From Flavobacterium sp. BFFFF2 (GTDB taxonomy: Bacteria > Bacteroidota > Bacteroidia > Flavobacteriales > Flavobacteriaceae), in the NCBI GenBank assembly GCA_002256385.1, contig NKJD01000004.1, positions 1 to 64,000 on the forward strand: a stretch of DNA of 64,000 nt, written 5' to 3'. The translations under genes and the position numbers were made by a program. Within the stretch, counting starts at the first letter, position 1. Every line of letters begins with the position of its first letter. Positions 7,307-52,589 of this stretch are shown here, piece after piece. The notes beneath the pieces are model-generated. The model was not told where the DNA came from, did no database searches, and was given only the letters and a program-made list of their open reading frames with translations.

Positions 7307-8005
7307 ATGTTAGGATATTATGTGCTTCTTGGACTCATTGGCATTGTCAGCTTTGCTGTGAGTTCTAAATTAAAAAGTAAATTCGAGTTCTATTCAAAAG
7401 TCAGGCTTCAAAACGGCATGAGTGGGGCTGAAATTGCCCAAAAAATGTTGGCAGACAATGGCATTTACGATGTAAAAGTGATGGCTGTTGAAGGCCAATT
7501 GACCGATCATTACAACCCAGCCAACAAAACGGTGAATTTGAGTGAGGCCGTGTATCATGAACGCAACGCGGCAGCCGCGGCAGTAGCTGCACACGAATGC
7601 GGACATGCGGTGCAACATGCGCAAGCCTATTCGATGTTGCAATTAAGATCGAATATGGTTCCGTTGGTTTCCATTTCATCAAGCTTGTCGCAATGGCTCA
7701 TCATTGGTGGCTTAATTTTGGGGGCAGCCGCTCATATTGGCTTTGGGTTTATCATTGCTGTCATTGGGTTGGTATTAATGGCCGTAGCTACTACCTTTAG
7801 TTTAATCACCTTACCCGTTGAATATGATGCCAGCAACCGAGCATTGGCTTGGTTAAAAAGCGAAAGAATGCTCACACCTTCAGAATATGAGGGTGCCGAA
7901 GACGCCTTAAAGTGGGCAGCACGCACCTATTTAGTAGCCGCCATTGGCGCATTGGCCAGTTTGCTGTATTGGGCCTTGCAAGTGTTTGGCTCACGCGAAG
8001 AGTAA
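7307..8005 (+). CDS. YugP-family zinc metallopeptidase (membrane)
   Basis: The 232-residue protein belongs to the Zn_peptidase_2 (YugP) family of membrane-bound neutral metallopeptidases. HECGHAVQHA near residue 97-106 is an HExxH-like site (HECGH) that would bind zinc. A hydrophobic N-terminus (LGYYVLLGLIGIVSFAV), a central hairpin of membrane segments (WLIIGGLILGAAAHIGFGFIIAVIGLVLM) and a C-terminal segment place it in the membrane. The substrate is unknown for the family. Confidence 0.9.
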   Translation: MLGYYVLLGLIGIVSFAVSSKLKSKFEFYSKVRLQNGMSGAEIAQKMLADNGIYDVKVMAVEGQLTDHYNPANKTVNLSEAVYHERNAAAAAVAAHECGHAVQHAQAYSMLQLRSNMVPLVSISSSLSQWLIIGGLILGAAAHIGFGFIIAVIGLVLMAVATTFSLITLPVEYDASNRALAWLKSERMLTPSEYEGAEDALKWAARTYLVAAIGALASLLYWALQVFGSREE

Positions 8006-8025
8006 ACTTGATAAAAATTCCCTTG

Positions 8026-8523
8026 CTATGGCTGGGGAATTTTCTTTTTAAGGGCTTCGACTACCTCATAAGCTGCTGGGCAAATGGACCGGTTCAGCAT
8101 CGTGAGTTTGTTGATTTGGTAGAATTTTTTTCGGTCGGTGTGTGGGTACTCCCGACAAGCTTTTGGCCGTACTTCATAGACCAAACAATGGTTGTCATCG
8201 GCCAAAAAGGCACAGGGCACTTGCTTGAGCACTTTGTCGCCTTCCTCGTCAACACGTAAGTATTGGGCTTCAAAAGCGGCGGGTTTCATTTTCAAAAATT
8301 TAGACAAGCGTTCCACGTCGGCATCGGTAAATAATGGGCCTGTCGTTTTGCAGCAATTGGCACAATCCAAACAATTGACGCGTTTGAATACCGCATCATG
8401 CAGGTCTTGCATCAGGTAATCAAGTTGTTTGGGCGGCTTTTTCTTGAGCTTTTCCAAATAACTGGCAGTTTCCTTTTCAGTATCTTTGGCCAAAGTGCCC
8501 AATTCTTTTATTGAAATATTCAT
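8026..8523 (-). CDS. YkgJ-family cysteine-cluster protein
   Basis: The 165-residue protein has the YkgJ signature CLDCANCC followed by further cysteines in VPCAF, HCLVY, KACREYP and SICPA, which probably coordinate a metal or Fe-S centre. The biochemical role of this family is not firmly known. The start at 8523 (MNISIKEL) is chosen over the longer open frame to 8703 because a TTG-N19-TATCTTTG promoter lies just upstream and the extension has no family likeness. It is divergent from, and overlaps the extreme 5' end of, the methyltransferase ORF. Confidence 0.87.
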   Translation of the reverse strand: MNISIKELGTLAKDTEKETASYLEKLKKKPPKQLDYLMQDLHDAVFKRVNCLDCANCCKTTGPLFTDADVERLSKFLKMKPAAFEAQYLRVDEEGDKVLKQVPCAFLADDNHCLVYEVRPKACREYPHTDRKKFYQINKLTMLNRSICPAAYEVVEALKKKIPQP

Positions 8524-43031: not shown

Positions 43032-43949
43032 TTAAGATTTAAAAAACGTTTTAATTTTTGACTTAAAATTATAAGTCGATTGTATAATGCGCGGTTCCCC
43101 AAATTTTGATTCTTTGAAAAACTCAATGTGTTTCACCACCACGTTGTATTCTTTTGTCAATTTCTTCGACGGGTCTGAAAACAAGCTGGCAAGTTGTTCG
43201 TTCTGAAATGGGTTGTTGCTTAGCGCATCATTTTCATACATGTCCATTAATGCTGACTGACTGATGTCGATGAACTGGTTTCCCACTTCTTTTTTCACCA
43301 CCAAAAACACAAACAGCAGCGAGTAACCTTGATGCACGCAAAAGAAATTCGAAAACTTACAAGTTTCTTGGATGCAGCCCGCGCCTTTAAAAGGCTTTCC
43401 GTCTTTAGAAATGCATTCATTGGCCGTTACGATGCCAAACGAATCACCATTGATGGCAAAATATTTATAATTTTCTGGTTCCACATTTAATTTTGAAACA
43501 ACCACATTTTCTATTTTTTTCCGGCACTGATCAAGTGTGTATGCATCGTTAAAATACTGTTTTAAAGACACTTTGCTTGACGGAATGAGCCTTTGAAAGA
43601 ATGAAATGGCCGAATTCTTATTCGTGCTCTTAGTTGTCTCTGCAGGACTGCTCCCTAATTTAATGCCAATCATTGCGTCTAAGTACCGTTCAATGTGGTC
43701 AGAAACCCCATTACTATTTAAATCAATCATCTGTCCAAATCCATTCACCTCAGTTCCTGGCATTGAGTTGAGTTCTTTGTCCATAAAATTGGGAACCCCA
43801 TCACTATCGCCGTCTTTCAACGAGGCTACAATGGAGTCCAATTTTACCGAAAGTCTGGCATTTTCAGCTTTCAAATCGTTCACTTGCTTGCGTGTGGCGC
43901 AGGAACTACTCAACGCCAACATCAGGAGGGATAAAAAGATTTTTTTCAT
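43032..43949 (-). CDS. Lipoprotein with thrombospondin-type-3-like calcium motifs
   Basis: The 305-residue protein has a lipoprotein signal (lipobox LALSSSC, Cys17), a short coiled coil (20-45), and two calcium-loop-like motifs: DGDSDG (46-51) and DLNSNG (76-81), in the DxDxDG style of OmpA-type linkers. The C-terminal 200 residues carry five cysteines between 130 and 205 and are not recognised. It is probably outer-membrane anchored. It is co-directional with the four-helix membrane protein gene, 10 bp apart. Confidence 0.72.
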   Translation of the reverse strand: MKKIFLSLLMLALSSSCATRKQVNDLKAENARLSVKLDSIVASLKDGDSDGVPNFMDKELNSMPGTEVNGFGQMIDLNSNGVSDHIERYLDAMIGIKLGSSPAETTKSTNKNSAISFFQRLIPSSKVSLKQYFNDAYTLDQCRKKIENVVVSKLNVEPENYKYFAINGDSFGIVTANECISKDGKPFKGAGCIQETCKFSNFFCVHQGYSLLFVFLVVKKEVGNQFIDISQSALMDMYENDALSNNPFQNEQLASLFSDPSKKLTKEYNVVVKHIEFFKESKFGEPRIIQSTYNFKSKIKTFFKS

Positions 43950-44047
43950 GTAAAAAATGAATTAACATTGAATGCTGCCAACAGATTGAACTACCTTATT
44001 ATAAATCATATATATCAATACAAGAACTCGAATGACACCCAAAAATG

Positions 44048-44668
44048 CTAGGGCATCAAGTCGTAGCCCAATTTGGTTTTTAATTCATCGAGTGGGATTT
44101 CGGTGAAGCTGTTGCTGTTGTCGTTTGGAAACAGCAAGCAATGCATCACTTCTTTGGTGTTTGAATCTAGTACAATTTTATAGCAATAATCGGGTACGCC
44201 GATGTTGTTTTTGCCCAGCGTTTTGTTTGTGCTATAAATATTGCCCGCTATAATAAACAAGGGCTTGCTTTGTGATTCATCGCGGATGCTCGTTTCCCAC
44301 TTTTTCCAAATGCCCCGATTGAGTTTTTTGGTTTGAGGCACACAATTATAATAACAAAAGGTTTTTTCGTCAGCTTCGCAATCGTTGGCAAAATCTTCCG
44401 CATTGGCCAAATGCCCTTTGTCATAAGGACTGCCCGCATAATCAGATCCGGAGGCCGAAATAATGCCGCATTTTTTAAAAGAAAAACCTTTGCGGTCGCA
44501 ATCGCCACCCCCTTTGTATAAGGTGTAGGTCACGTACAACGGTTCTTTTAGCTGATAATTAAAATAAGACTTGTAAGCGCCAACATCAATGATGGTGTCG
44601 GTTTTAAATGTTTGCCCAAGGGCAAAGGAGCAACATATAAGGAAGGCTAATGCGAGGTGTTTTTTCAT
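44048..44668 (-). CDS. Secreted DNA/RNA non-specific endonuclease
   Basis: The 206-residue protein has a signal peptide (MKKHLALAFLICCSFALGQ) and the beta-beta-alpha-metal nuclease motif YDKGHLANAED, with DKGH in place of DRGH and His86 as the general base, then YYNCVPQTKKLNRGIWKKWE holding the metal-binding asparagines. Six or more cysteines suggest disulfides outside the cytoplasm. An upstream ATG at 44686 would overlap the GH19 stop as TAATG and cannot be excluded. Confidence 0.88.
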   Translation of the reverse strand: MKKHLALAFLICCSFALGQTFKTDTIIDVGAYKSYFNYQLKEPLYVTYTLYKGGGDCDRKGFSFKKCGIISASGSDYAGSPYDKGHLANAEDFANDCEADEKTFCYYNCVPQTKKLNRGIWKKWETSIRDESQSKPLFIIAGNIYSTNKTLGKNNIGVPDYCYKIVLDSNTKEVMHCLLFPNDNSNSFTEIPLDELKTKLGYDLMP

Positions 44669-44685
44669 AAATAAAGTGATACGCA

Positions 44686-45273
44686 TTAAACATTAGCCGC
44701 AATGTGACTGATACTGGCATAGTACTTTTGGGCATAATCTTTAATAAGATCGGCCTTGTCCAGTCCATTAATGATTCGGCGCGCATTGGTCCAATCTTCG
44801 GTGGTTCCAGCAAAGTAATTTGACAGTTTTTTGCCCGTAAACCAGCCTTCCATCATGCCCAAAAACATGATTTTAGTAGCATTGGGCAATTCCATGACGC
44901 CAGCCGCATGATGAATAAAATCTTTCTTTAATTCTTTGCCCGCTCTTTCATAGTTTTCGTACCATGTTAACTGAACAAATCCACGGCCATAAAACACCTC
45001 GTTGGTGTCGGTGTAGGGCTTTTTGTTCTGTTTTACTTTGCCCCCATAAATCAGGTTTTTTCCCTTGCCCCATTCTTCAATGGGTTGCATGGTACGCCCC
45101 GTTTCGTGGTGTGCTGTGGCGAACATATAAGCCAACCAACGCTCGTCTTGACGTGAATAGTTGGCCTCCCATTCATCAAGAATGGCTGACACGCCTTGCA
45201 CCTGCTTGGTGCTCATTGACCCGCTAAAAAGCGTCAATTTAATTTGATCGAAGAAGAATTTACGATTAATCAT
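44686..45273 (-). CDS. GH19-type lysozyme/chitinase-like enzyme
   Basis: The 195-residue protein has the glycoside hydrolase 19 marks FATAHHETGRTMQP (general acid Glu57) and YGRGFVQLTWYENYERAG (residues 95-112), as in phage-type endolysins and small chitinases. There is no signal peptide, so it must leave the cell by a holin-like route, a secretion system or lysis, or act on cell-internal material. It lies between a membrane protein and a secreted nuclease gene on the same strand. Confidence 0.87.
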   Translation of the reverse strand: MINRKFFFDQIKLTLFSGSMSTKQVQGVSAILDEWEANYSRQDERWLAYMFATAHHETGRTMQPIEEWGKGKNLIYGGKVKQNKKPYTDTNEVFYGRGFVQLTWYENYERAGKELKKDFIHHAAGVMELPNATKIMFLGMMEGWFTGKKLSNYFAGTTEDWTNARRIINGLDKADLIKDYAQKYYASISHIAANV

Positions 45274-45348
45274 AATTCATAGTTTTTATTATCGGTTATG
45301 AAAAATTTTAAAATTATGGGCTGCTCTTGGAAGGAAGTAAAGTAAAAA

Positions 45349-46278
45349 CTACCCTTTTTTGTTTTGTGAAGGTTCCGTTTTTTTTGACCCACGCAATTGC
45401 ATCATTTTACTCAACAAATCGAACCAAAAGGGCGCGCCCAATGAAATGGCCAGGGCAGTTAACATACAACCAAATACACTGTAAAGGATGTTAATACCAG
45501 AAATGCCTTGCCAACCCAATCCCAACACGGCATTGGCTTCATGAAGTTCACTTTGATCGGCCAGCATCAGTTGGGCCTGCTGCAAGGAGGCTTGGAGTTG
45601 TTCGTCAGCCTCCCTATTTTCGGGTTGACTGCTGTTTTGCTTAGTTTTCAAGTATTGATCGGCAATGCTTGCCAACTGTGCGGCCTGTTGCGGATTATAG
45701 GACAGGTTTTTAACAATTTGAATGGTGTCCGCATTAAAGGACAATGCCACGGTGAACGCAACCAAAAGAGTAATTTTTTGGGTCTGCTTTTTATACCAAC
45801 CCGTTGCCCTGTCCATGGTTTCGTTAAACCAATTTTCGGCCAATTGCTGAAAATGCGCCAGTTTGCCATCGGCTTCTTGATATAGGATTTCCAAGTATTT
45901 CCCTGTTTCGGGATTCACTTTCTTTATTTCTTGAATGCCGTCGAGCAATTGTTGTTCCGGATGGACGCTGCCTGCTGACAAGTCTTTACACAAATGCACC
46001 AAAGCACTTGAAAACGAACCGCTGCTCATGTAAGAGGGCTTCTTCTTGTTGCTTTCACCCAAATATTTAATTACAGGCTGCTGGTAAAATTGCGCCACAA
46101 TGGCATTCGGCCGGTCGTCCAAATCGGTTAACATTCTTCGGATTCCTTTTTCGAGGGTTTTGGCCCTTAAATTTAAAAAAGAAGCAACGATTTCGTTGAG
46201 CGTTGTTACCAACAAACTATATAGTGAGTAAATAAACACCAAGCCAATGACTACGTTTATTGCTGTTGAATTGAACAT
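45349..46278 (-). CDS. Membrane protein with large central domain, unknown function
   Basis: The 309-residue protein has an N-terminal helix (INVVIGLVFIYSLYSLLVTTLNEIVASFL), a second hydrophobic stretch near 165-185 (ITLLVAFTVALSFNAD), a Gln/Glu/Ala-rich helical part (195-245), and a C-terminal helix (LYSVFGCMLTALAISLGAPFWFDLL). I know similar proteins only as hypothetical integral membrane proteins. It is the first gene of the minus-strand group down to 42566. Confidence 0.72.
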   Translation of the reverse strand: MFNSTAINVVIGLVFIYSLYSLLVTTLNEIVASFLNLRAKTLEKGIRRMLTDLDDRPNAIVAQFYQQPVIKYLGESNKKKPSYMSSGSFSSALVHLCKDLSAGSVHPEQQLLDGIQEIKKVNPETGKYLEILYQEADGKLAHFQQLAENWFNETMDRATGWYKKQTQKITLLVAFTVALSFNADTIQIVKNLSYNPQQAAQLASIADQYLKTKQNSSQPENREADEQLQASLQQAQLMLADQSELHEANAVLGLGWQGISGINILYSVFGCMLTALAISLGAPFWFDLLSKMMQLRGSKKTEPSQNKKG

Positions 46279-46965: not shown

Positions 46966-48309
46966 TTATTCCACATTTTTGAATTGAAACTCATATGTAT
47001 AAAGTTCAATATTCGGCTTCGTTTTAATTAATTCAACTAATTTTTTGTCAGGTTTATGTAAACTTATTATTCCTTTAACTTCTCTTCTTAATTCTGCTGT
47101 TAAACCATTGATATAATTTTCAATTTGTTCAACCACTTCAATTCCTGCTTCATTTCTCTTTAGTTCTACAACATATAAAATATCTTTTGTTTTATCAATT
47201 AGGAGCAAATCCAAAATTCCATTTACGCTTTGAATGTAATATTGGCGACCGAATATTTTTTCATCTTGATAAACTTCAAGTTTCTTACCAAAGACCTCGT
47301 ATCCATATTTTATTTGTTCTAAAATCATATCTTCGAGAATCTTTTCTTTAGATAGTAATTTTGCTTCTTGGAACGAAGACAAGTTAAAAGGCTTTTTAAT
47401 TCTGAAAATACTATTAATTAATTGATTTGCAAATTGCTGATTTTCACTAATTCGTGATAATTCTTTCAGTTTTTCTTTTCTGCTTTTATAGTAAGAATTA
47501 TGTGGGTATTTCAAAATAAGAAATTCTAAAACTTCAAAAAAATTATCTGTGTTTCTAGTTTTCTCAAGCGAGTAAAGGTAATTATTTGCGAAAATATTAA
47601 AATCGTCAAGTTCTCTATCTATTTCTATTTTATGCCTTATTTGATATGCTTCTTCAAGTGAAAATATTTCTAAACTTTTTTTATAAAATCTTAAAGCATT
47701 TTCAAATTCAGAAATTCTATTGTAAGCGTATCCTAAATCATTAAAGACATTCCATTTAAATATTTGAAAATCCTCTAACAATAACTGAAAATCTTTTTCG
47801 TTTTCAATTAAATCTTCCAATTCATTCATGAATAAAAGGTTTTGTTTAATTGAATTTTCAAAATTGCCAGTTTCTAGATAACATAATCCAATGAAATAGC
47901 TTGCAACGTAATCATCAATTCTATTAAATTGATAAAGTGCAATTTCGAAATTATCACTATCAAGATAAATCAAACCATTTATATAATCCGCTGCATCAGT
48001 ATTATTTGCAATTTCCAATGAACAATTATAAAACTGCTTTTTTGTGGTTTCATCGAAAAAAGTGAGAAGCGGCTCCCAGATTAAAAAATACATTTCTGGA
48101 AAATCATTTAAATCTCCCACAAAATCTAATGCCAATTCTTGGTAAAAATCATCAACTTGTCCATTAATAGCCAATTTAGTTTTTTCGAATTCTTTGTACA
48201 AATCGTCAATACTTATTTCGTTTCTGAAACAATTTAAAGTATCATGTAATATTTGACTTGTATAATTGTTTTTTAATTCTTCAAGTAAGAATAGTACTTT
48301 GTCAGTCAT
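46966..48309 (-). CDS. TPR-repeat protein with C-terminal NucS-like PD-(D/E)XK nuclease domain
   Basis: The 447-residue protein has tetratricopeptide-like helical repeats over about residues 100-230 (for example YFIGLCYLETGNFENSIKQN and DLGYAYNRISEFENALRFYK). The C-terminal domain has GILDLLLID (Asp367) followed by VVELKRNEAGIEVVEQIENY (Glu382, Lys384, Gln394), a complete D...ExK site with the NucS/DUF91 look. This suggests a nuclease recruited through the TPR part, for repair or phage defence. It is more AT-rich than the core genes, which hints at transfer. Confidence 0.78.
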   Translation of the reverse strand: MTDKVLFLLEELKNNYTSQILHDTLNCFRNEISIDDLYKEFEKTKLAINGQVDDFYQELALDFVGDLNDFPEMYFLIWEPLLTFFDETTKKQFYNCSLEIANNTDAADYINGLIYLDSDNFEIALYQFNRIDDYVASYFIGLCYLETGNFENSIKQNLLFMNELEDLIENEKDFQLLLEDFQIFKWNVFNDLGYAYNRISEFENALRFYKKSLEIFSLEEAYQIRHKIEIDRELDDFNIFANNYLYSLEKTRNTDNFFEVLEFLILKYPHNSYYKSRKEKLKELSRISENQQFANQLINSIFRIKKPFNLSSFQEAKLLSKEKILEDMILEQIKYGYEVFGKKLEVYQDEKIFGRQYYIQSVNGILDLLLIDKTKDILYVVELKRNEAGIEVVEQIENYINGLTAELRREVKGIISLHKPDKKLVELIKTKPNIELYTYEFQFKNVE

Positions 48310-48371
48310 TTTTAATTTTTTATTCTGTTTTATAGATTATCCGGGTAGAGTATCGCACAACATTAGTTAGA

Positions 48372-48482
48372 CCGCTTCACGAAGTTGCCGATCAAAGCGG
48401 GCTTAGTTCTCTCTGCCAAGATAATATTTATCGTGAAAACGAAAGATCTGGGTACCGAAATCTCGGCAATTTTGTGAAACGG
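48372..48482. repeat. Imperfect 20-bp inverted repeat with 71-bp loop
   Basis: CCGCTTCACGAAGTTGCCGA (48372-48391) and TCGGCAATTTTGTGAAACGG (48463-48482) are inverse copies matching 17 of 20, all three differences being G-U-compatible on one strand. It lies between the nuclease and lipoprotein genes. It resembles a folded recombination site or a long RNA hairpin; no coding role is evident. Confidence 0.55.
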
Positions 48483-48498
48483 CAGTTTGTTGTTGTAA

Positions 48499-49095
48499 CT
48501 ATTTGTTATTTTTAATTTCTTGAACCCTTTTAATAAGTAAATTATCAAGGTCAATTTCATATTCAACGCTTCTTATGACTATCTGATCTTCATCATTTTT
48601 TACCTTTATGACAGTATCTAAAAAAATAGTCTCGATAATTTTTCCTCTTCTTGATAGAACTTTACTATAGTTTGAAATCTTTCCGTTTTCTCTGAAAAAT
48701 GTCGAGTCGAGTTTCAGTTTTTCGAAATTACTAAAGTCAGGTTTAATATATTTATTCCCGATATATTGAGCATACCTTTTCTTTGGAATTGGATATTTGC
48801 TATCATAAATTGATCGAAAGTATAAATCTTTTCCTCTCACTTCTAAAAAAGCGCTTTTTGAATAATCAATTTTACCATTTGGTAAAAATGCAATTTTCTC
48901 TCTCATTACTTTTTTGTCACCGTTTGAAAATCTATAAACAGAAGTGATTTTGTCATTTTTATCAAGCTCAATAATTATACTATCATTTGACTTTTCTCTA
49001 ATAATTGGCATATGTACAACATCCTTGTTACTGACCTCTTTGGCACATGAAAACACTAATAATATCGAGATTAAAAATGTTAAATATTTCGTCAT
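48499..49095 (-). CDS. Lipoprotein of unknown function (198 aa)
   Basis: The signal MTKYLTFLISILLVFSCAKE has a lipobox with Cys17. The mature part is Lys/Asp/Ile-rich and looks beta-stranded, with a repeat-like start (IIIELDKNDKITSVYRFSNGDKK). No family is recognised. The gene is AT-rich and is flanked by an inverted repeat on one side and R3 hairpin repeats on the other. Confidence 0.7.
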   Translation of the reverse strand: MTKYLTFLISILLVFSCAKEVSNKDVVHMPIIREKSNDSIIIELDKNDKITSVYRFSNGDKKVMREKIAFLPNGKIDYSKSAFLEVRGKDLYFRSIYDSKYPIPKKRYAQYIGNKYIKPDFSNFEKLKLDSTFFRENGKISNYSKVLSRRGKIIETIFLDTVIKVKNDEDQIVIRSVEYEIDLDNLLIKRVQEIKNNK

Positions 49096-49130
49096 TGTGT
49101 TGGTGTTGTTCTGTTATAGCAACTAACCCC

Positions 49131-49290
49131 GCTCCGCAAAGTCTCCCGACTTTGCGGCCACAGCCAAAGTTGAATTTCTGGATATAAATCTAAGAAGTTT
49201 TCGGATTTCTTCGTGAAAAAAAAAAGTAAGGTTACCTGAGAGAGCAACATTACCACTTTTAACATTCCAACTTTAAAACTCATAGTGCAA
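49131..49290. repeat. Repeat R3, copy 1
   Basis: This copy opens with a perfect hairpin, CCGCAAAGTC-TCCC-GACTTTGCGG (49134-49157), then GAATTTCTGGATATAAATCT, AAGAAGTTTTCGGATTTC, and a purine/pyrimidine part ending CATAGTGCAA. Copy 2 follows three bases later. Confidence 0.85.
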
Positions 49291-49293
49291 GCT

Positions 49294-49425
49294 GCTCCGC
49301 AAAGTCTCCCGACTTTTCGGCAAAAACCAAAATCGATTTTCAGGATCGAAATCTAAGAAGTTTTCGGATTTCGTGGGGCAATAAAAATAAAATTAACTGC
49401 CGAGCAACTTTCAAACTTTCAACTT
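49294..49425. repeat. Repeat R3, copy 2 (tandem with copy 1)
   Basis: This is the same element as copy 1 with one mismatch in the hairpin (GACTTTTCGG) and a shortened end. It shares ATCTAAGAAGTTTTCGGATT and GGGGCAATAAAAATAAAATT with the other copies. Confidence 0.8.
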
Positions 49426-49431
49426 AGCTTT

Positions 49432-49526
49432 GGGCGTGCCCCGCCTGCCTAAGGCGAGGCGGGTCGGGCTGTCCGTTATATCTTTTGCTAAAGCAAAAGG
49501 ATGCCACTGCCATCCCTCACGCGATT
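49432..49526. repeat. Repeat R4, copy 1 (GC-rich double hairpin)
   Basis: The element has a CCCGCCT...AGGCGGG stem, GTCGGGCTGTCCG, then the hairpin CTTTTGCT-AA-AGCAAAAG (49482-49499) and CCATCCCTCACGCGA. Related copies are at 59071 and 62083. From 49527 to 49762 the DNA shows only a doubled GTTTAAAGTTTCAG and no gene. Confidence 0.7.
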
Positions 49527-49762
49527 TTAGTTTAAAGTTTCAGGTTTAAAGTTTCAGATTTTTTACGAACAGCACCTACTAAAACCAGGCACTTAGTTCC
49601 CGCCGGGCTGGTCTAAAGTCAATATTTCCTTGCGTTTAAAAGTTTTTCAACGCTTGAAATGTCAAGTGATAACATTTGTTGCTGCATTAATTTTATTGCT
49701 GATTTTCAGGTGGTTTATTGGTTAAAGTGCTTCGCCATAAACTTTGATTGATTGTAAAAGTC

Positions 49763-50032
49763 TCATTTATTAAGAACAAATCTTCTAAACATGCATACAA
49801 GATAAAAAGATAAAAATACCGCAGCCATTATTGCGATAAATATCTGGTGTTTTGATATACAAGGTGGGCAATCTTCATTACCAATGCATGGCTCGCAACT
49901 TGGTTTAAGGTAATAAAATATTAGACCTAAGATTACTTCTAAAACAATTAGTTGTAAAAATTTAATTTTACAAAATCTCTTAATCTCATGGATTTGCATC
50001 ATCAATTTTTTATTTAATTTTTTTAAGCGCAA
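49763..50032 (-). CDS. Small two-helix membrane protein with cysteine-rich loop
   Basis: The 89-residue protein has helices at about 24-41 (FLQLIVLEVILGLIFYYL) and 64-82 (IFIAIMAAVFLSFYLVCMF) joined by an exported loop CEPCIGNEDCPPC with four cysteines in CxxC pairs, which could bind metal or form disulfides. The ATG at 50002 (MMQIHEIK) is an alternative start. No family is recognised. It stands alone between R4 and R3 repeats. Confidence 0.6.
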   Translation of the reverse strand: MRLKKLNKKLMMQIHEIKRFCKIKFLQLIVLEVILGLIFYYLKPSCEPCIGNEDCPPCISKHQIFIAIMAAVFLSFYLVCMFRRFVLNK

Positions 50033-50078
50033 TTGGATTTTTGTAATTCTTACATTATGTACTGATATACTTCACCCC

Positions 50079-50250
50079 ACTCCGCAATCCTGATGACTAT
50101 CCGAACCCAACTTTGCGGCCACAGCCAAAGTCGAATTTCTGGCTATAAATCTAAGAAGTTTTCGGGTTTCGTGGGGCAATAAAAATAAAATTAACTGGCG
50201 CGCAACTTTCCAACTTTCAACATTCCAACTTTAAAACTCATAGTGCAAGC
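50079..50250. repeat. Repeat R3, copy 3 (hairpin disrupted)
   Basis: The body matches copies 1 and 4 from CTTTGCGGCCACAGCCAAAG onward, but the first hairpin arm is broken by about ten extra bases. It ends in GTGCAAGC and runs into the palindrome GCAAGCT-AA-AGCTTGC (50246-50261), also found after copy 5. The remaining DNA to 50351 has no gene. Confidence 0.75.
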
Positions 50251-50351
50251 TAAAGCTTGCGTACCTGAAGCCCACTGGCCTTTTATTACGCTAACGCTCC
50301 ATACAATTCGGCCTTTGGCCTCGGGTCTCCTCTATGTATCGTATACCCATG

Positions 50352-50855
50352 TTACCTTAGTGTTTTATGTTCAAAATCTAATTTAAAATCATTGTATTTT
50401 TTCCCATTATATATACAATTTTCGATGGTGACAAAATATGCACAATACTCTGGGGTAGTAGTTCCAAGTGGATTTAGTGCAGGTTTGATTTTAGATAATT
50501 TATGCTCTTCTTTACTACCATTTTTATCAATAATCAAAAAACATATGTCATTTTTGTAGTTTATATTATCTACTGTAATGCTGAAGTCACCGTCATCCCA
50601 AACCAGAATACGATCTATGTTAAATGTTAATGACCGTATTTTTTTGTCAAAATTTCCGTTGTTCAAATACTCTATATAAATTATTTTTTCGACACTCATA
50701 CCATTCCCGTTGAAATTCACAATTTTTATTTTATCAATATAGGGATCTGTATATGCTTTTTTTTCCGGTTTTTTTTTACAACAAATAAGCAATATCACCA
50801 CAAAAAGCACTTTAACCGCAATTCTAATCTTTTTTATCTGAGCCATAGACTGCAT
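50352..50855 (-). CDS. Lipoprotein of unknown function (167 aa)
   Basis: A short signal (IAVKVLFVVILLICC) ends in a lipobox-like LLICC followed by a basic KKKPEKK. The mature domain is beta-rich (IKIVNFNGNGMSVEKIIYIEY, SLTFNIDRILVW) with four more cysteines. The first ATG (50855) or one three codons later may be used. No family is recognised. The gene is AT-rich and flanked by R3 repeats on both sides. Confidence 0.68.
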   Translation of the reverse strand: MQSMAQIKKIRIAVKVLFVVILLICCKKKPEKKAYTDPYIDKIKIVNFNGNGMSVEKIIYIEYLNNGNFDKKIRSLTFNIDRILVWDDGDFSITVDNINYKNDICFLIIDKNGSKEEHKLSKIKPALNPLGTTTPEYCAYFVTIENCIYNGKKYNDFKLDFEHKTLR

Positions 50856-50890
50856 TGTAAATTGTTTTACTTATTTCACTTTCTGTCGCC

Positions 50891-51048
50891 GCTCCGCAAA
50901 GTCTCCCGACTTTGCGGCCACAGCCAAAGTTGAATTTCTGGATATAAATCTAAGAAGTTTTCGGATTTCGTTATGCAAAAAAACAAAATTAACTGAGGGA
51001 AGAACTTTCCAACTTTCAACATTCCAACTTTAAAACTCATAGTGCAAC
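50891..51048. repeat. Repeat R3, copy 4
   Basis: The hairpin CCGCAAAGTC-TCCC-GACTTTGCGG (50894-50917) is perfect, and the body is nearly identical to copy 1. It is followed directly by copy 5. Confidence 0.85.
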
Positions 51049-51050
51049 CT

Positions 51051-51203
51051 GCTCCGCAAAGTCTCCCGACTTTGCGGCAAAAACCAAAGTAGATTTTCTG
51101 GATATAAATCTATTAAGTTTTCTGGTTTCGTGGGGCAATAAAAATAAAATTAACTGGCGAGCAACTTTCCAACTTTCAACATTCCAACGTTATTACTGGC
51201 AAA
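51051..51203. repeat. Repeat R3, copy 5 (tandem with copy 4)
   Basis: The hairpin at 51054-51077 is perfect. The end differs (CATTCCAACGTTATTACTGG) and is followed by GCAAGCT-AA-AGCTTGC and GTACCTGAAGCCCACTGG, as after copy 3. Confidence 0.82.
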
Positions 51204-51271
51204 GCAAGCTAAAGCTTGCGTACCTGAAGCCCACTGGGCTTCCTCCTCTATATCTCATATGCTTTGCTCGT

Positions 51272-51519
51272 GTGATCCCATTTTGCTCCATTTTGAACAT
51301 TTCAACTTTCAAACAAAAATGGGATTACACTTCGCTTCGCTTGCGTGATCCCATTTTGCTCCGTTTTGAACATTTCAACTTTCAAACAAAAATGGGATTA
51401 CACTTCGCTTCGCTTGCGTGATCCCATTTTGCTCCGTTCTGAACATTTCAACTTTCAAACAAAAATGGGATTACACTTCGCTTCGCTTGCGTGATCCCAT
51501 TTTGCTCCGTTCTGAACAT
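51272..51519. repeat. 73-bp tandem repeat, three full units and a partial fourth
   Basis: Units start at 51272, 51345, 51418 and 51491, each with GTGATCCCATTTTGCTCCGT. AAAATGGGAT in one unit pairs perfectly with ATCCCATTTT at the start of the next, and CAC/GTG extends the stem past a TA bulge, so each junction forms a hairpin with a 14-base loop. There is no variable spacer, so it is not a CRISPR array. Confidence 0.92.
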
Positions 51520-51530
51520 GCCATAAAAGC

Positions 51531-51591
51531 AACGCAACCAAGGTTGCGTTACCTTTTTATTTTTTTAGCCGCTTACAAAAGCAAGCTTTTG
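51531..51591. repeat. Two stem-AA-stem palindromes
   Basis: AACGCAACC-AA-GGTTGCGTT (51531-51550) and CAAAAGC-AA-GCTTTTG (51576-51591) are perfect palindromes with an AA centre. The first is followed by a T-rich run on the plus strand and could be a terminator. Confidence 0.65.
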
Positions 51592-51599
51592 ACGCTTTA

Positions 51600-51633
51600 A
51601 AAAAATAAAAACGGCACCGTTAGGTGCCGTTTT
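51600..51633 (-). terminator. Terminator of the tRNA cluster
   Basis: AAAACGGCACC (51608-51618) and GGTGCCGTTTT (51623-51633) form a perfect stem with a GTTA loop. On the minus strand it is followed by a T-rich run (A-rich at 51594-51610 on the plus strand), so it ends the minus-strand tRNA transcript and could work in both directions. Confidence 0.88.
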
Positions 51634-51646
51634 ATACATGCATTCG

Positions 51647-51728
51647 TGACCACGATGGGATTCGAACCCATACGCCTTGCAGCACCACCCCCTCAAGATG
51701 GCGAGTCTACCAATTTCTCCACGTGGCC
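51647..51728 (-). tRNA. tRNA-Leu (anticodon GAG)
   Basis: The minus strand folds as a class II tRNA: acceptor GGCCACG/CGTGGTC, D-arm with TTGGTAGA, anticodon stem CCATC/GGTGG with loop TTGAGGG (anticodon GAG, reading CTC/CTT), a short variable arm and T-arm GGTTCGAATCC. The 3' CCA is not encoded. Confidence 0.93.
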
Positions 51729-51767
51729 TCAAAAAAAAAGTTATCCGAAAAACGAACAACTTTTTTG

Positions 51768-51840
51768 TGACCCGACTGGGGCTCGAACCCAGGACCCCAA
51801 CATTAAAAGTGTTGTGCTCTACCAGCTGAGCTATCGAGTC
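51768..51840 (-). tRNA. tRNA-Lys (anticodon TTT), copy 1
   Basis: The 73-base minus-strand gene has acceptor GACTCGA-type pairing, D-arm AGCTCAGCTGGTAGAGC, anticodon loop CTTTTAA in a CAACA/TGTTG stem, and T-arm GGTTCGAGCCC. It is almost identical to the next copy (one D-loop base differs). CCA is not encoded. Confidence 0.95.
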
Positions 51841-51862
51841 TAATAAATAAGCAAAAAAAAAG

Positions 51863-51935
51863 TGACCCGACTGGGGCTCGAACCCAGGACCCCAACATTA
51901 AAAGTGTTGTGCTCTACCAACTGAGCTATCGAGTC
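51863..51935 (-). tRNA. tRNA-Lys (anticodon TTT), copy 2
   Basis: This is the first gene of the minus-strand tRNA transcript and differs from the other lysine tRNA only by AGTTGGT in the D-loop. The promoter lies 21 bp upstream. Confidence 0.95.
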
Positions 51936-52046: not shown

Positions 52047-52589
52047 ATGTTTAATAATAAAAAACACGTGGTTTTAGTGGGTTACATGGCGGCTGGGAAA
52101 AGCGAAGTGGGCAAAAAGTTGGCCGAAATTACGCACTTGCCCTTCGTGGATCTCGATGAACACATTGAAAAACAGACGGGTTTAAGCCCAGCCGAGTGGA
52201 TCGTCAATCGGGGCGATATTGCCTTTCGGAGGGTGGAACACACACTTTTTACTGAACTTTGTCAAGGTTTGGTGCCAACTATCATTTCAACGGGCGGCGG
52301 CACGCCTTGCTATGCCCAAAACGACTTGTGGTTGCAGCACCCTCACTGTATATCTTTTTATTTAAAAGCAGCGCCTGCTACGCTTTTAGGTCGGCTCCAG
52401 AAATCAGCCAGTATTAGGCCTTTAAAACCCAGTGCGCATACGGACGAGGAAGCACTAGAACACCTTGCCAAACACCTCTTTGAAAGGGTTCCCTACTATA
52501 CAAAAGCGAAACATACCATTGCAACGGATGGAAAAAATATTGATGCAGTGGTGGCTGAGTTGGTTAAAATATTGGAGACGGATCAATAA
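52047..52589 (+). CDS. aroK: Shikimate kinase
   Basis: Shikimate kinase phosphorylates shikimate in aromatic amino-acid synthesis. The 180 residues have the P-loop GYMAAGKS (12-19), the DLDEHIE shikimate/metal site, FRRVEH with the substrate-binding arginine, the STGGGTP Walker B-like loop, and a lid region near 115-125 (SIRPLK). Length is typical. It is a single gene, with a terminator shared with the convergent peptidase gene. Confidence 0.93.
   Translation: MFNNKKHVVLVGYMAAGKSEVGKKLAEITHLPFVDLDEHIEKQTGLSPAEWIVNRGDIAFRRVEHTLFTELCQGLVPTIISTGGGTPCYAQNDLWLQHPHCISFYLKAAPATLLGRLQKSASIRPLKPSAHTDEEALEHLAKHLFERVPYYTKAKHTIATDGKNIDAVVAELVKILETDQ

Follow-up and report, generated by a model that had tools for sequence, protein, structure and literature searches.

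The usual explanation for arrays of orphan immunity genes is homologous or illegitimate recombination. According to a study of such arrays in Vibrio cholerae, there was no evidence of an integrase in effector-immunity insertion (PMC5361080). The recombinase-associated acquired interbacterial defence (rAID) arrays of Bacteroidales are another described design, in which short, co-oriented orphan immunity genes of low GC content are accompanied by conserved intergenic motifs (PMC12247911). As for integrons, the complete one that IntegronFinder 2.0 names for Bacteroidetes proper is that of Salinibacter ruber (PMC9024848). The locus considered here is a row of single genes at positions 46966 to 51203 of a 64,000-nucleotide stretch of DNA from Flavobacterium sp. 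BFFFF2 (contig NKJD01000004.1), which we call the window. It belongs to a contig of 103 kb, C50; C55, C24, C95 and C69 are other contigs of the same genome (G000). The first-pass annotation had described four single AT-rich genes on the minus strand, five copies of a repeat, R3, and a long inverted repeat, and coordinates, GC content and repeat identity bear out this description. It did not mention that the array ends at a cluster of tRNA genes. The four genes have a GC content of 26–29%, against 41.0% for the whole window and 45–47% for the flanking housekeeping genes. We consider it probable, if far from settled, that we are dealing with a tRNA hotspot carrying a mosaic of single AT-rich accessory genes, fed by capture of attC cassettes and by recombination between R3 modules. 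Its components, with protein lengths in amino acids (aa), are as follows.

46966–48309, minus strand: gene for a TPR and NucS-like nuclease, 447 aa, 26.1% GC; a probable cassette, its 5' side starting at the attC right end
48353–48495, plus strand (bottom strand relative to the minus-strand genes): long inverted repeat, probable attC site, its right end CTAATGTTGTGC lying immediately ahead of the 447-aa gene
48499–49095, minus strand: gene for a 198-aa lipoprotein, orphan-immunity-like, 27.5% GC
49119–49127, minus strand: cassette head GTTAGTTGC(TATAACA), fused to the end of an R3 copy and recognized by comparison with homologous cassettes
49130–49293, minus strand: R3 copy heading the 198-aa gene; in minus-strand reading, a conserved TTAGATTTAT stretch, then the hairpin CCGCAAAGTCGGGAGACTTTGCGG, which lies some 39 nt ahead of the ATG
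49294–49423, minus strand: R3 copy, second of a tandem doublet (repeat comparison)
49458–49530, minus strand: Flavo-1 element (RF01705), 52.5 bits for a gathering score of 42
49531–49747, minus strand: CASTAIL, a 3' module behind the 89-aa gene, 70–79% identical to copies elsewhere in the genome
49763–50032, minus strand: gene for a Cys-rich membrane protein, orphan-immunity-like, 89 aa when read from TTG, though a nearby ATG is the likelier start (about 80 aa), 27.4% GC
50106–50251, minus strand: R3 copy heading the 89-aa gene, with a degenerate hairpin (repeat comparison)
50352–50855, minus strand: gene for a 167-aa lipoprotein-like protein, 28.6% GC
50890–51050, minus strand: R3 copy heading the 167-aa gene (repeat comparison)
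51051–51192, minus strand: R3 copy, second of a tandem doublet, on the tRNA side (repeat comparison)
51193–51645, no strand assigned: tRNA-proximal repeat block that includes a 73-bp unit in three to four tandem copies; at C55 and C95 the interval from tRNA to R3 holds a similar block
51646–51935, minus strand: tRNA-Leu(gag), tRNA-Lys(ttt), tRNA-Lys(ttt), the conserved hotspot anchor, its order kept in 10 of 10 relatives
52047–52589, plus strand: shikimate kinase-like gene, a conserved anchor beside the tRNAs in relatives

The cassette side of this reading is found at the junction of the 447-aa and 198-aa genes. The inverted repeat that separates them is probably an integron attC site and may be a functional one. 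Its fold has an energy of -49.8 kcal/mol (z -4.7 against dinucleotide shuffles), its architecture is the same as that of cassette sites, and it is the best match in 10 kb for R1, an attC covariance model built without the window site (23.3 bits, E 5.6e-4 unfiltered). Independently of this, on the other side of the 198-aa gene, the module opens with GTTAGTTGCTATAACA, a head that the cassettes of its relatives share, fused straight to the end of R3. Homologous heads read GTTAGTTGCAATAAAA in the relative G263, and GTTAGTGGCAATAACA and GTTAGCAGTAATAATA in others; a cassette head at a G/TTR core is present in the window, and we read this shared head, joined to R3, as a captured cassette.

In G263 a relative of the 198-aa gene stands among more than 20 co-oriented genes, mostly of signal-peptide or lipoprotein-like type and of 20–30% GC, with sites of about 140 nt between them, behind a 592-aa tyrosine recombinase (L203/L204, 3879–25916 of the joined 40 kb). 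One cassette of this array is duplicated (7319–7789 and 7932–8402). The window genome itself encodes, on C69 (L223, 1–8457), a 588-aa recombinase, 57% identical over 569 aa to that at the head of the G263 array, with its own attC array behind; the genome holds about 25 strong attC sites. Arrays of attC sites are also seen on C99, C107, C109, C46, C47 and C79, and together with that of C69 they carry restriction-modification-like, RelE/HTH toxin-antitoxin-like and AT-rich lipoprotein-like genes. A further observation concerns a cassette region common to CALPLL020000056.1, titled Rhizobium sp., and CANHHG010000022.1, a Bacteroidetes metagenome-assembled genome (L254/L255): this sharing suggests that the Rhizobium label is probably wrong.

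The cassettes of the window genome and its relatives resemble those of integrons in several ways. Each mostly holds one co-oriented AT-rich gene, a tyrosine recombinase heads the array, and the attC sites fold on the bottom strand and have AACGTT right ends. Among the 16 sites from which the attC covariance model was made, 14 of 20 pairs show changes in both partners, with a covariation score of 0.498 against 0.153 after shuffling and at most 0.10 with slid partners. It is a signature of integron cassettes that the head matches the reverse complement of its own tail. Here heads agree with their own tails at 7.5 positions of 9 (several at 9/9, and several misses stemming from the automatic choice of tail), against 5.3 of 9 with other tails; most G263 cassettes have a head complementary to their own tail. 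The differences lie in the recombinase. Its best solved relative is IntI4 (PDB 2a3v), but the IntI-specific insertion is missing (residues 476–502 of the query against 178–246 of the 2a3v chain), about 300 extra residues extend the N-terminus, and the score of 216.7 for the NCBIfam integron-integrase model TIGR02249 falls below the cut-off of 265. The window differs further, having one weak site and no recombinase.

The attC sites may also serve the expression of the cassettes that follow them. The motif TAnnTTTG is the -7 box of Bacteroidota. In counts that are not independent, since many sites are near-copies within one array, it is present on the gene strand of 29 of the 71 distinct attC sites of L203–L210, L223 and L260–L267, where shuffling gives 6.5 on average and 13 at most, and the bottom strand a single case. 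Its distance from the right end is mostly 58–66 nt. The looser TAnnTTTR is met in 54 of the 71 (12 when shuffled), and both are carried in the attC loops.

R3 belongs to the other half of the array. The idea that repeats lie between the genes holds for three of them, the 198-, 89- and 167-aa genes, each headed by R3; it does not hold at the joint of the 198-aa and 447-aa genes, where R3 is missing and a different element, the inverted repeat, takes the place. The five copies are 84–100% identical to the reference copy. Their 10-bp hairpin is perfect in three, has one mismatch in a fourth and is degenerate before the 89-aa gene; two tandem doublets (49130–49423 and 50890–51192) consist of blocks about 86% identical (family D4). 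The hairpin stops about 39 nt upstream of the ATG of the 198-aa gene and likewise of the 167-aa gene, and the conserved TTAGATTTAT is present in most copies. R3 may act as a promoter module, and its repetition could provide homology for exchange. With up to three mismatches, the hairpin was found genome-wide only at the window sites and at one site on C55 (none for a reversed control pattern). Ten full R3 copies lie at four loci, of which three (C50, C55, C95) have a tRNA gene no more than about 0.6 kb away; at C24, R3 precedes a 111-aa lipoprotein-like gene near the contig end, and at C95 it has no gene module. The first-pass annotation had named, as the outcome contrary to its view, R3 scattered genome-wide amid conserved gene content. 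What we find is R3 restricted to four loci and content that varies, so that this objection falls. R3 was found in none of 60 genomes of relatives, save for a bare 27-bp hairpin in G019, a different species where the exact CCGCAAAGTCTCCCGACTTTGCGG stands alone with the rest of R3 missing (L029, G019:C1:281538). Two other identities of R3 were discarded: as attC, for want of R''/R' core boxes and of a match with the attC model; as phage or plasmid element, with no exact match in viral contigs and no match in plasmids. The gene-cassette array of the first-pass annotation is retained for one junction, that of the probable attC and the cassette head, and is backed by a unit of the same design on C55, but not for R3 itself, which is not attC-like.

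That the locus is a hotspot, as had been proposed, is supported by its anchor. In 10 of 10 relatives from the genus the order of shikimate kinase and tRNA-Lys-Lys-Leu is kept and the DNA beyond tRNA-Leu differs: one finds there a serine-recombinase-like and a tyrosine-integrase-like open reading frame (labels from sequence reading), orphans of 23–26% GC, and ordinary genes. The tRNA-Arg site of C55 is likewise variable. Next to tRNA-Leu in the window, the 73-bp tandem repeat (51261–51519) has copies 95–96% identical that carry GTGATCCCATTTTGCTCC, and the block to which it belongs is 77–85% identical over about 185 nt to its counterparts on C55 and C95. Beside its tRNA-Arg, C55 follows a regular plan, R3, single gene, CASTAIL, Flavo-1, next R3, three times in tandem, one unit holding a paralogous pair in place of the single gene. 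CASTAIL, of about 200 nt, has a terminator-like hairpin in full copies elsewhere, degenerate in the window copy; some 15 full copies exist in the genome, behind AT-rich genes in most places with a callable gene. Flavo-1 is described as a widespread Bacteroidetes motif without known function (PMC2864571, PMC9723704). Above the cut-off it has 19 copies in the window genome and is present in 24 of 38 sampled genomes; here, in the window array and at the end of each C55 unit, it forms one element of a module that recurs behind AT-rich genes. Taking 21 places in the genome, we also observe that it is often preceded by CASTAIL behind such genes, and it may be a site of recombination or insertion at the level of DNA rather than an RNA.

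The place directly behind an Rhs tip is the position of the cognate immunity gene. The 198-aa protein has seven relatives in 400 genomes of the genus (35–50% identity for the six aligned, with the lipobox Ser16-Cys17 invariant), and one of them (L189) is placed there; so is a relative of the 89-aa protein, in L200/G333. The Rhs core was confirmed in both cases by TIGR03696. By these positions of their relatives, the 198-aa gene and the 89-aa gene resemble orphan immunity genes, and the genes of the array could protect against incoming toxins. No toxin-linked relative was found for the 167-aa and 447-aa genes, and Pfam has no known immunity domain in any of the four. The 447-aa protein has Pfam TPR_1 and NucS_C domains, its C-terminal half matching the PADLOC candidate phage-defence model PDC-S02 (E 1.3e-17); exact peptide patterns found no relative of it in genome contigs. 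The 198-aa protein has no match in plasmids, and its predicted structure (pLDDT 71.8) no fold match in the PDB at E < 0.001; the single-sequence model of the 167-aa protein (pLDDT 41.5) is uninformative. Displaced immunity arrays of Rhs or type VI secretion loci share with this one AT-rich immunity-like genes without a toxin, and elsewhere in the genome Rhs tips and immunity genes occur, as does this 3' module: all five of its Rhs-core places are on contigs carrying CASTAIL, and on C83 displaced Rhs tips, one with a HELGH metalloprotease-like motif, are followed by immunity-like genes. The window and C55 arrays differ in standing at tRNA genes, not behind an Rhs or type VI secretion locus, and in their R3 heads. 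On C83 as well (L126, 5780–16746), the Rhs tips and immunity-like genes have among them a CHC2/Toprim primase-like gene as well as two tyrosine recombinases, possibly a mobile element within the Rhs locus.

The hotspot fed by cassette capture and by exchange between R3 modules would then work as follows. At the far end, the 198-aa and 447-aa genes would be integron-type cassettes or their remnants with the attC-like site between them, most likely derived from the same genome's integron-like system, that of the 588-aa recombinase and the attC arrays. The genes near the tRNAs have an R3 module at their head and, at C55, a terminator module and Flavo-1 behind as well. These modules probably supply promoter or leader and terminator and, being repeated, probably allow homologous recombination to duplicate, exchange or remove entire units. 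The window array resembles a cassette array in its working; it is not a classical integron, having one attC site (23.3 bits) and not two or more between cassettes, and no integrase gene beside it, and it does not pass for a rAID system. We would extend this picture only tentatively to a separate flavobacterial integron lineage, with a recombinase lacking the IntI insertion and extended by 300 residues at its N-terminus, attC loops with a Bacteroidota-type promoter box, a trade in immunity genes, and R3 at tRNA hotspots as docking points for cassettes outside the main array.

Several observations weigh against the reading that we prefer. The window attC is weak when the whole genome is considered (E 0.21), and none was found at C55, C24 or C95. 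Head-tail complementarity is absent from the 198-aa module, whose tail reads GTTGTAACT or GTTGTTGTA for a head GTTAGTTGC; as the expected tail is not found, the site behind must be degenerate, exchanged or from another event. The recombinase that the first-pass annotation had proposed to look for did not turn up next to the array: no PF00589 tyrosine recombinase was matched on C50, the contig of the window, or on any of C55, C24 and C95. Only one of the seven relatives of the 198-aa gene adjoins an Rhs tip, others being cassettes within attC arrays headed by a tyrosine recombinase, and the same 400 genomes gave no relative of the 167-aa protein. Finally, protein identities of about 40–60% mean that the relatives are different species from that of the window, so that content turnover at the hotspot is known from comparison between species.

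Part of this would fit a pure homologous-recombination island, in which all modules arise by duplication and exchange of R3, CASTAIL and Flavo-1 and the attC-like repeat is a passive leftover. The blocks of the R3 doublets, about 86% identical, the C55 array of the same design without attC and the weakness of the window site all favour it, but the attC-like repeat sits exactly at a gene junction and the head of the 198-aa cassette is common to cassettes of other species; we hold this explanation for rather unlikely. Much less probable is an orphan immunity system of rAID type, in which a recombinase would accompany the dedicated defence array and R3 would be the motif conserved between its genes. 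The window does have at least two co-directional genes under 41% GC (26–29%), short and immunity-like as in the definition of rAID (PMC12247911), and a conserved intergenic motif, R3 before three genes. Against this, no tyrosine recombinase lies upstream or elsewhere on the four R3 contigs, the host is of the Flavobacterium group, the motifs are R3, CASTAIL and Flavo-1 with one attC, and R3 occurs in no relative besides the one bare hairpin. Least credible of all is the idea that a transposase spread R3 as a REP/MITE-like element with no tie to the genes, the array being a coincidence, for although R3 is led by a hairpin and the bare hairpin of G019 recalls such elements, its only ten full copies cluster at gene starts and tRNA loci, and the RAYT/REP origin once suggested was rejected when PF01797 (Y1 transposase) had zero matches in the genome, with positive controls.

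Just past the array (43032–46278) lies a minus-strand row of normal GC content, possibly an older island, whose products are a NUC1-type nuclease, a GH19-like enzyme and a membrane protein weakly similar to SieB.

Of wider reach is the integron-like system that the window genome carries. Members of one family stand behind an Rhs toxin in one genome and are attC cassettes in others; the member in the window still has its cassette head and belongs to an array beside tRNA genes. This links toxin-immunity genes to an unusual system of integron type that the genome encodes at another place. If it is true that recombinases without the IntI insertion serve the attC-like sites of Flavobacterium, surveys that demand a canonical IntI undercount them. 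From the structure of IntI bound to attC, the IntI-specific part is thought to read the extrahelical bases of attC, and a question now becomes testable: how a folded attC may be used by a recombinase that lacks IntI's reader of extrahelical bases.

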